A DNA stretch of 34,863 nt, from the IMG/VR virus record IMGVR_UViG_3300025101_000081, positions 1-34,863 of that record, one strand, 5' to 3'. The position numbers and the translations under genes were made by a program. The notes beneath the pieces are model-generated. The model made no database searches, was not told where the DNA came from, and worked only from the letters and a program-made list of their open reading frames with translations. Shown in pieces: positions 16,935-19,199 of the stretch. Source of the stretch: a virus. Every line of letters starts with the position of its first letter. The first letter of the stretch is position 1.

Positions 16935-17084
16935 ATGAAACTAACTACTCGCCAACAGAATACTTTAAAAAAACATTCTGAACATCACTCTGCAAAGCAC
17001 ATGGCTTTTATGAAAAGATTGATGAGGCAAGGTGTCTCATTCTCACAGGCACATAAGAGGGCACAAGCCAAGGTAGGTAAGTAA
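16935..17084 (+). CDS. 49-residue basic miniprotein 2
   Basis: Begins MKLTTRQQNTLKKHSEHHSA and contains HMAFMKRLMRQGVSFSQAHK with a basic C-terminus. The pattern TxRQxNTLKKHS..H...HM..M..LM..G.SF..AH is one I know from many marine phages, with no assigned function. It is rich in His, Lys and Arg. Its stop overlaps the next start (TAATG). Confidence 0.75.
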   Translation: MKLTTRQQNTLKKHSEHHSAKHMAFMKRLMRQGVSFSQAHKRAQAKVGK

Positions 17085-17332
17085 TGCCTAAGAAAAAAAG
17101 TGTTAGCTTGTCTCTAGGTAGAGGTGAGAAATCCCGTAAGGGTGGTCTTACTGCTAAAGGTAGGGCTAAATATAATCGTGCAACTGGTTCTAAACTTAAG
17201 GCTCCACAACCTCAAGGAGGTGCACGTAAGCGTTCTTTCTGTGCCCGTATGAAGGGTAACAAAGGGCCAATGAAAGACAGCAAGGGTAGACCTACAAGGA
17301 AAGCTCTTGCATTACGAAGATGGAAATGTTAA
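17084..17332 (+). CDS. 82-residue basic protein (DUF6321-like)
   Basis: Contains GGLTAKGRAKYNRATGS, LKAPQPQG, KRSFCARM and GPMKDSKGRPTRKALALRRW, ending KC. This block order is the DUF6321 pattern that I recall from phage proteins. Very basic, with two Cys. The function is unknown; proximity to head genes suggests a virion or packaging role. Confidence 0.8.
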   Translation: MPKKKSVSLSLGRGEKSRKGGLTAKGRAKYNRATGSKLKAPQPQGGARKRSFCARMKGNKGPMKDSKGRPTRKALALRRWKC

Positions 17333-17752: not shown

Positions 17753-18787
17753 ATGGCTGCAATCTCATTACAAAGAGAAACAACCAATAAGTGGCAAGAG
17801 TTATGTAAGTGGGTTACAAGCACAGACAACAGACTATACGTTGGTTGGTTCGGTGTACTTATGATCCCTGCATTACTTACAGCTGCAACCTGTTTTATTA
17901 TCGCCTTCATAGCTGCTCCACCTGTTGACATAGACGGGATACGTGAACCAGTTTCTGGCTCTCTACTCTATGGAAACAACATCATCTCTGGGGCAATCGT
18001 CCCGTCATCAAACGCAATCGGTCTGCACTTCTACCCAATCTGGGAGGCTGCAACCATTGACGAATGGCTCTACAATGGTGGGCCATACCAACTTATCGTA
18101 TTCCATTTCCTCATCGGTGTCTCTGCTTATATGGGACGACAATGGGAACTTAGTTACAGATTAGGTATGAGACCTTGGATAGCAGTAGCATACTCAGCTC
18201 CAGTCTCAGCAGCCTTTGCTGTATTTCTTGTCTACCCTTTCGGGCAGGGGAGTTTCAGTGATGGTATGCCTCTTGGTATTTCTGGTACTTTTAATTTCAT
18301 GTTTGTATTCCAAGCCGAACACAATATCCTTATGCACCCGTTCCATATGCTCGGTGTTCTTGGGGTATTCGGTGGTTCTCTTGCCTCTGCTATGCACGGA
18401 AGTCTTGTTACTTCTTCTCTTATCAAGGAGACAACTGCATTGGAAGCTCAGAACTATGGTTACAAATTTGGACAGGAAGAGGAGACATATAACATCGTTG
18501 CAGCTCACGGCTACTTCGGACGTTTACTTTTCCAATATGCAAGTTTTAACAATTCTCGCTCTCTACACTTCTTTCTGGCTGTTCTCCCCGTGGTTGGCAT
18601 ATGGTTTACCTCTATGGGTATAGCTACTATGGCATTTAACTTAAACGGTTTCAACTTCAACCAATCAGTTGTTGATGCAAACGGGAAGGTTATTCCCACA
18701 TGGGCTGACATAGTTAACAGACAGAACCTTGGATTCGAGGTAATGCACGAGCGTAACGCACATAATTTTCCACTAGACCTTGCATAG
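17753..18787 (+). CDS. psbA: Photosystem II reaction-centre protein D1
   Basis: Full D1 core in standard residue register: Tyr161 (redox Tyr), Asp170, Glu189, His190, His198, His215, Ser264, His272, His332, Glu333, His337, Asp342 and Ala344. All manganese-cluster, P680 and QB ligands are therefore present, and five membrane helices are evident. Residue 130 is Gln, the low-light D1 form. The protein stops at Ala344 (PLDLA), so it lacks the C-terminal extension that host CtpA normally removes. Differences from usual sequence include ASAMHGS where FSAMHGS is typical and [10 protein letters not shown] in the D-E loop. It replaces rapidly turned-over host D1 during infection. Confidence 0.98.
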
Positions 18788-18821
18788 ATTTACATTAATT
18801 TTAACTTTAATTACAAATCTA
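18785..18821 (+). other. Hairpin at psbA stop
   Basis: TAGATTT (18785-18791, including the stop codon) pairs with AAATCTA (18815-18821); inside, ATTAA can pair with TTAAT. It is A/T-rich and thus weak, without a T tract. It may mark a 3' processing end of the psbA message. Confidence 0.35.
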
Positions 18822-18830
18822 TTTATCATA

Positions 18831-18855
18831 GCTGGTGTCACTAGACACTGGCAGC
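18831..18855 (+). other. Hairpin upstream of candidate riboswitch
   Basis: GCTG (18831-18834) pairs with CAGC (18852-18855), and GTGTC (18835-18839) with GACAC (18844-18848) around an ACTA loop, leaving a TGG bulge. The nine base pairs lie immediately 5' of the candidate aptamer and may be part of the same folded leader. Confidence 0.45.
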
Positions 18856-18856
18856 C

Positions 18857-18924
18857 ACGTCCGTTCATCCTTCGGGACGCATGCAATCAGATCATGGAAC
18901 GGGGGTCTGATACTGAGGTATATT
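18857..18924 (+). promoter_or_regulatory. Candidate glutamine-II (Downstream-peptide) riboswitch
   Basis: The core CGTTCATCCTTCGGGACG, continuing CATGCAA (18862-18885), matches my memory of the glnA / Downstream-peptide aptamer family, which binds L-glutamine in marine cyanobacteria and cyanophages. A C(TTCG)G tetraloop closes a TCC/GGA stem. GTTC (18863-18866) can pair with GAAC (18897-18900), and ATCAGA (18886-18891) pairs with TCTGAT (18906-18911), giving a pseudoknot-capable fold. A short ORF starts at 18925, as the motif name implies. If right, translation of that peptide would respond to nitrogen status. The assignment rests on recalled consensus, not a search. Confidence 0.6.
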
Positions 18925-19026
18925 ATGACTCAAGTAGAACTACAAGCTCGTCTTAAAGAGCAGAAGGATCATGCTAGAGCTATGAAACTTAAGTATCGTG
19001 GCATCGCATATACACCAAACAGGTAA
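18925..19026 (+). CDS. 33-residue DUF4278-like downstream peptide
   Basis: MTQVELQARLKEQKDHARAM followed by KLKYRGIAYTPNR. The KLKYRG.AY motif is typical of DUF4278, a small cyanobacterial domain of unknown function. It begins directly after the candidate glutamine riboswitch. I use the ATG at 18925, not the in-frame GTG at 18835, because the upstream part would run through the structured RNA and looks random. The stop codon lies in the 5' arm of the tRNA-like hairpin. Confidence 0.7.
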   Translation: MTQVELQARLKEQKDHARAMKLKYRGIAYTPNR

Positions 19027-19061
19027 ATGGCATACAGGGAGGTTCGAGTCCTCCCTTACCT
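19021..19061 (+). other. tRNA-like hairpin (acceptor plus T-arm mimic)
   Basis: AGGTAA (19021-19026) pairs with TTACCT (19056-19061), and GGGAGG (19037-19042) with CCTCCC (19050-19055) around the loop TTCGAGT, a standard tRNA T-loop. The 10 nt between the 5' arms replace the D and anticodon arms. The result resembles a tRNA minihelix followed by A. Possible readings are an RNA processing signal, an end protector, or a relic of a host tRNA attachment site. Confidence 0.55.
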
Positions 19062-19199
19062 ATTGGCATCAGCCTCTACGGAGATACCTAATGCCGTCAT
19101 GACGGTGGGATAGACCACAACATCAGTATGAGTCTTAACTGAAACAAATAAGATTCCAACAAAACTAGATCTAGAAACGATAATTAATACCTTATAAAA
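19062..19199 (+). promoter_or_regulatory. Leader of the major capsid gene
   Basis: No gene is seen. It contains ATGCC (19091-19095), able to pair with either of two GGCAT copies (19029-19033 and 19065-19069), the 12-bp palindrome CCGTCATGACGG (19094-19105), AGACCACAACA (19112-19122, also at 161-171 and similar to the transcribed start of the T7 phi10 promoter), and the palindrome CTAGATCTAG (19165-19174). A phage promoter for the capsid gene is expected here by analogy with T7, but I cannot define one. Confidence 0.4.

Follow-up and report, generated by a model that had tools for sequence, protein, structure and literature searches.

A T7-like cyanophage fragment of 34,863 nucleotides (hereafter the window, that is, the whole stretch of DNA that was analysed) carries a glutamine-II riboswitch aptamer between the photosynthesis gene psbA and the major capsid protein gene, directly followed by a DUF4278-type micropeptide. 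Our main reading, to which we assign a probability of roughly 0.78, is that this switch lies between cistrons and governs translation of the adjoining peptide, which acts in trans. Nitrogen control by cyanophages is usually discussed in terms of protein-coding auxiliary genes. If our reading is correct, abundant ocean viruses would sense the nitrogen status of their hosts directly and respond with a micropeptide, by means of a glutamine-sensing RNA that occupies one genome position across T7-like cyanophages and is mostly unannotated.

A glutamine-II riboswitch aptamer between psbA and the capsid gene

Pfam and PHROG assignments show the gene order connector, scaffold, psbA, capsid and tail in the window. 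An earlier note on this DNA had proposed a glutamine-II riboswitch in the psbA-capsid interval, and both the identity and the location were borne out. A cmscan search of the whole window returned a single match at the Rfam gathering threshold, a full-length alignment to Glutamine-II (RF01704, model positions 1-60 of 60; type 2, formerly the Downstream-peptide motif) with 54.7 bits against a threshold of 33 bits (E 9.6e-11). The glnA model, which the note had likewise proposed for an Infernal search, scored 14.5 bits against its cut-off of 35, and Glutamine-I (RF01739) was rejected as the identity of the RNA. The core quoted in the note is found at 18862-18886, within the interval it had given. 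The features of this region are:

17753-18787, plus strand: psbA (photosystem II D1), upstream of the switch (Pfam Photo_RC, 296 bits)
18859-18911, plus strand: Glutamine-II riboswitch aptamer (RF01704, 54.7 bits; covariation in 58 viral homologues)
18862-18866 with 18897-18901, plus strand: aptamer pseudoknot PK
18868-18870 with 18875-18877, plus strand: aptamer helix P1
18886-18892 with 18905-18911, plus strand: aptamer helix P2
19200-20369, plus strand: major capsid protein gene (Pfam Gp10A-like, 232.6 bits; PHROG major head protein)

The structure was assessed in an alignment of 58 distinct viral homologues of the aptamer. All five pairs of the H-type pseudoknot CGUUC/GAACG are invariant, and compensatory changes occur at all three pairs of P1 and all seven pairs of P2. 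Paired cells make up 96.2% of the alignment compared with 79.6% after shuffling and at most 57% in slid controls, and the covariation score of 0.464 compares with 0.143 for shuffled alignments, no slid register exceeding 0.10. The invariant columns (CGTTCA, the CGCA linking strand and CATGGAACGGGG) match the binding-core segments CGUUC, CGC linking strand and GGAACGG of the crystal structure (PMC6698751), and the segments of the glutamine site are therefore intact in the phage copies. The note had named the lack of a covariance-model match and of conservation of its quoted strands as grounds against the proposal; a match is present, and GTTCATCC and GGACGCATG are conserved in relatives. Judged by sequence and covariation, window 18859-18911 is a Glutamine-II riboswitch aptamer.

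Further observations concern the surroundings of the switch. The gap between psbA and the riboswitch contains a reading frame with a short hydrophobic stretch (TLITNLFIIAGVTRHW, window 18780-18850), similar to stretches in P-GSP1 and in the loci L041, L042, L057 and L073; it may encode a small membrane peptide that would overlap the aptamer. Just 5' of psbA, at 17084-17332, lies a gene for an 82-residue DUF6321 protein (PF19846, 87.9 bits) with similarity to the C-terminal region of a number of phage proteins without an assigned function. The early region carries a C-5 cytosine-specific DNA methylase gene (1537-2427; Pfam PF00145, 160 bits).

A single-repeat DUF4278-type micropeptide follows the switch

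Two features stand immediately 3' of the aptamer:

18915-18919, plus strand: Shine-Dalgarno-like GAGGT, 5 nt before the ATG (read from the sequence; spacing in relatives 4-9 nt)
18925-19026, plus strand: 33-residue micropeptide MTQVELQARLKEQKDHARAMKLKYRGIAYTPNR, single-repeat DUF4278-type (PF14105; YRG ORF after viral riboswitches)

The ORF runs from ATG to TAA and starts 14 nt past the aptamer, and the length of its product is within the range of 17-100 residues expected for ORFs directly 3' of Glutamine-II switches, as described for the Downstream-peptide motif (PMC2864571). The description of this product in the earlier note as a DUF4278-like peptide right after the aptamer agrees with a PF14105 match of 30.5 bits against a cut-off of 25.3 (E 4.9e-7). 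The match consists of the KLKYRG.AY motif and covers only positions 1-13 of the 57 in the profile, short of the full domain, and we therefore refer to a DUF4278-type single-repeat peptide rather than to a DUF4278 domain.

Scanning viral contigs and capsid loci with the RNA pattern only gave 141 distinct viral copies, and an ORF with a YRG motif directly follows the riboswitch in every one of them (141/141). All but one of these ORFs (140/141) contain a single YRG, positioned near the C-terminus, and most are 13-39 residues long; most sampled host ORFs have two YRG repeats. Many non-cyanobacterial matches to the pattern in the host scan were chance matches, without a YRG ORF. Across the viral copies the Tyr, Arg, Gly and second Tyr are invariant despite codon changes, with all six codons used for Arg and all four for Gly. 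Residues that stay fixed while their synonymous codons vary indicate selection on the peptide sequence.

Distribution among cyanopodoviruses

The comparison across cyanopodoviruses advocated in the note showed the switch to be widespread. At the Rfam cut-off the aptamer was detected in the capsid-upstream regions of 16 of 24 isolates (P-SSP7, P-SSP2, P-SSP3, P-SSP10, P-GSP1, NATL1A-7, NATL2A-133, 9515-10a, S-TIP37, S-TIP28, S-RIP1, S-RIP2, S-CBP1, S-CBP4, SS120-1 and P-SCSP-R27W). A model built from the phage copies added S-SBP1 (36.4 bits) and, weakly, S-CBP3 (21.2 bits), while neither model found the aptamer in the capsid-upstream regions of S-B28, S-CBP2, Syn5, P60, P-RSP2 and S-CBP42. Metagenomic loci were fetched by capsid similarity and had at least 1300 nt of upstream sequence; in this set, whose rate holds for relatives of the window capsid, 37 of 41 loci contain the aptamer at E 1.1e-5 or better, one (L079) contains it weakly, and in L024, L046 and L047 it was not found. 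Plausible matches in a BLAST search of phage records came from cyanopodoviruses and from related uncultured records, for the most part where no annotation exists. In S-B28 the psbA-capsid interval (308-976 of the locus) holds an ORF annotated as lytic murein transglycosylase, without riboswitch or micropeptide.

Phages without the aptamer also lack the YRG micropeptide, and S-SBP1, S-CBP3 and L079, with their weak aptamers, each have one. By this pattern of joint occurrence, switch and micropeptide are one unit. As almost all relatives keep the pair, the virus probably reads the nitrogen state of its host, an idea that is open to study in culture since P-SSP7 and S-TIP37 are among the phages that carry the switch. 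It is hardly credible that the RNA was recently acquired from a host and has no function: members of this family do occur in Prochlorococcus and Synechococcus, but near-universal retention in one phage group together with compensatory mutations, as well as a single-repeat peptide and Arg codon use unlike those of the hosts, argue otherwise, and the covariation and the 141/141 association with the peptide already contradict it.

The micropeptide as the probable direct target of the switch

The earlier note had gone on to link the switch to late phage expression, that is, to the capsid gene, and the comparison did not establish this part of its proposal. The gene adjoining the switch, and its probable direct target, is the micropeptide, and in P-SSP10, NATL2A-133, 9515-10a and NATL1A-7 other ORFs intervene between the peptide and the capsid gene. 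The partnership with psbA is likewise not constant. There is no psbA between the scaffold and capsid genes of S-TIP28 and SS120-1, yet the switch is present, and in a metagenomic group represented by L016 and L042 a Hli-like ORF precedes the switch, without an adjacent psbA. These neighbourhoods also led us to reject the RNA as a 3' element of psbA serving, for example, mRNA stability or retroregulation. Its close position 3' of psbA in most relatives would fit such a role, but its retention without adjacent psbA and the peptide that always comes next after it make this very improbable. Control of the capsid gene by the switch is possible and is taken up below with the RNA preceding that gene.

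A probable translational switch in a polycistronic mRNA

The upstream stop codon is close to the aptamer pattern in most loci (median 10 nt; 30 nt or less in 103 of 137), so that a promoter of its own would hardly fit in front of the switch in most relatives. In the window, the two weak sigma-70 matches were no more than are found in shuffled sequence, and a sigma-70 promoter belonging to the switch itself was rejected in view of this and of the scant space in relatives. A repeated phage RNA polymerase promoter in the 5' flank was discarded as well, there being no convincing repeats of 18790-18858 within the window. No intrinsic terminator was found between psbA and the capsid gene, which led us to reject a transcriptional switch of the terminator type. 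The nearness of the upstream stop codon, in combination with this lack of a terminator, favours control at the level of translation, most likely within an mRNA that carries several cistrons.

In the mechanism we propose, L-glutamine would bind and stabilise the pseudoknot and P2, as can be deduced by analogy with the known family members; the Shine-Dalgarno site would thereby be freed and the peptide made at high host glutamine (an ON switch). This direction is chosen because glutamine binding and activation of expression have been reported for type 2 switches, which in picocyanobacteria stand before DUF4278 genes (PMC6316151), and because the stabilised pseudoknot was suggested in the structure paper to free the ribosome site (PMC6698751). 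The micropeptide would then work in trans on host nitrogen metabolism, a role we infer on two grounds, namely that DUF4278 forms the N-terminal portion of IF17 and that picocyanobacteria have DUF4278 peptides under glutamine switches (PMC6316151); the phage product would thus be a viral version of those peptides of Prochlorococcus and Synechococcus. Simple modelling did not reproduce the switching step, as the computed Shine-Dalgarno accessibility did not change when the pseudoknot strands were held unpaired (0.312 versus 0.316); no computed ligand effect on this site was seen.

The 5' flank of the aptamer offers a candidate for an additional pairing:

18854-18859, plus strand: candidate long-range helix P0, whose 5' side GCCACG is complementary to CGTGGC, the Arg-Gly codons at 18997-19002

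In the viral copies this register is paired at 0.704 compared with 0.675 after shuffling (z 5.6, in the exact register only and uncorrected for relatedness), which makes a pairing of the 5' flank with the Arg-Gly codons suggestive. P0 is absent from host copies and was rejected as a general feature of the riboswitch family. Shine-Dalgarno access is slightly lower with the natural codons than with resampled synonymous ones (0.332 versus 0.386, p 3e-4). Both this difference and the phage-specific complementarity to the Arg-Gly codons would be expected if the peptide were a mere cis-acting leader ORF with a functionless product, its codons serving the platform through P0 and a hairpin sequestering the Shine-Dalgarno sequence. 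We consider this distinctly unlikely, since Tyr, Arg, Gly and Tyr stay fixed through the synonymous changes and since the same motif recurs in host peptides with other codons and in longer, repeated sequences. Translational control of a peptide acting in trans is the reading that we retain.

A second structured RNA precedes the capsid gene

Between the micropeptide and the capsid gene we identified a second RNA element, E2, with the following parts:

19021-19061, plus strand: tRNA-like hairpin formed by AGGTAA (19021-19026) and TTACCT (19056-19061), read from the sequence
19037-19055, plus strand: T-arm GGGAGG-TTCGAGT-CCTCCC inside the tRNA-like hairpin
19063-19118, plus strand: E2 core, conserved structured RNA upstream of the capsid gene (model R2; covariation, 85 distinct sequences)

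The core comprises four covarying helices. In an alignment of 85 distinct sequences that was fitted to the structure, 98.2% of the cells are paired (81.0% when shuffled) and the covariation score is 0.468 (0.135 when shuffled; 0.10 or less when slid). It occurs once in the window and stands 5' of the capsid gene across relatives, being weak or missing in the most distant ones; an Rfam scan of the window gave no match for the element at 19021-19118. Among 131 distinct cases, the 5' module of the element takes the form of a tRNA-like T-arm structure in 58 and of a different hairpin (of the GGAGCACCTCAGAGTCGGACTCC type) in 72. Complete tRNA-Gly(tcc) genes occupy the same site in NATL1A-7 (L330, 480-550) and in L084 (942-1014), their ends abutting the E2 core exactly, which suggests that processing of a tRNA or tRNA-like structure sets the 5' end of the capsid mRNA. 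Our guess is that E2 may be the corresponding processing signal.

Palindromes recur in this region: CCGTCATGACGG lies at window 19094-19105, with CCGTCTAGACGG in relatives, and a palindromic TCTAGATCTAGA-like sequence precedes the capsid ATG at about 19165-19180, and is replaced in relatives by different palindromes, for example GAACGTTC or AAGATCTT. A psbA-less group has a small membrane ORF (NDRAIWFGIIGLAL...HKVVR) between the micropeptide and the capsid gene (L016 3101-3328, L024 3206-3337, L047 2719-2850), the stop codon of which likewise lies within the tRNA-like module. This ORF is retained in L024 and L047, where riboswitch and micropeptide have both been lost.

In the window the tRNA-like hairpin takes in the stop codon of the micropeptide on its 5' strand, and an ORF stop is likewise enclosed in most of the tRNA-like cases for which a stem was identified. 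Ribosomes brought in by glutamine-dependent translation of the micropeptide could end within the tRNA-like structure and alter how the capsid mRNA is processed or translated, or how stable it is, so that the switch would gate capsid (late) expression in cis. The constant position of the switch 5' of the capsid gene would agree with this. We nevertheless hold it to be unlikely in view of the intervening ORFs in the four isolates named above and of the capsid-leader element that is kept in the switch-less L024 and L047. A more elaborate and quite improbable scheme would make the locus a conserved nitrogen checkpoint in T7-like cyanophages, with an expression platform that uses the codons of its own peptide, through the pairing of the 5' flank with the Arg-Gly codons, and with a stop codon whose place in the tRNA-like structure couples glutamine to capsid-mRNA maturation through the RNA at 19021-19118.

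Comparison with known systems

The switch belongs to a known riboswitch family, and glutamine riboswitches of phages are already known. One phage reportedly features in public accounts of the Downstream-peptide motif. Our literature search, which covered few subscription papers, found no paper describing a riboswitch at this cyanopodovirus locus, nor a description of the near-universal capsid-proximal copy in T7-like phages, of the strict association of this copy with a single-repeat peptide, or of the second element.

With Glutamine-II (RF01704) the window shares the full-length model match, the P1/PK/P2 architecture, the invariant binding-site segments and the short 3' ORF (PMC6698751, PMC2864571). 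The phage copies differ from the known family in their near-invariant ACGTC 5' flank and in their position between cistrons, about 10 nt past the upstream stop codon, whereas for host yfr6 a separate start site has been reported some 20 nt upstream (PMC2864571). Glutamine-I (glnA) has a related binding site (PMC6698751), but its model does not reach the cut-off in the window. The phage peptide has L-x-YRG-x-x-Y in common with the picocyanobacterial DUF4278 peptides and with the N-terminus of IF17, the glutamine synthetase inactivating factor, and like the picocyanobacterial peptides it lies downstream of a glutamine riboswitch (PMC6316151); it differs from the sampled host ORFs in its shorter format with one YRG near the C-terminus in place of mostly two.

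Host-type regulatory RNAs carried by phages include glutamine riboswitches in T4-like cyanophages and other marine phages as well as the wcaG, manA and PhotoRC-II motifs in T4-like cyanophages (PMC9004378, PMC9602691, PMC2864571). The switch of phage Melnitz is glnA-like and located near tmRNA, while the present one is of type 2. The earlier phage riboswitches come from T4-like or other myophages, whereas the type 2 switch described here occupies a single conserved place in the genomes of T7-like phages.
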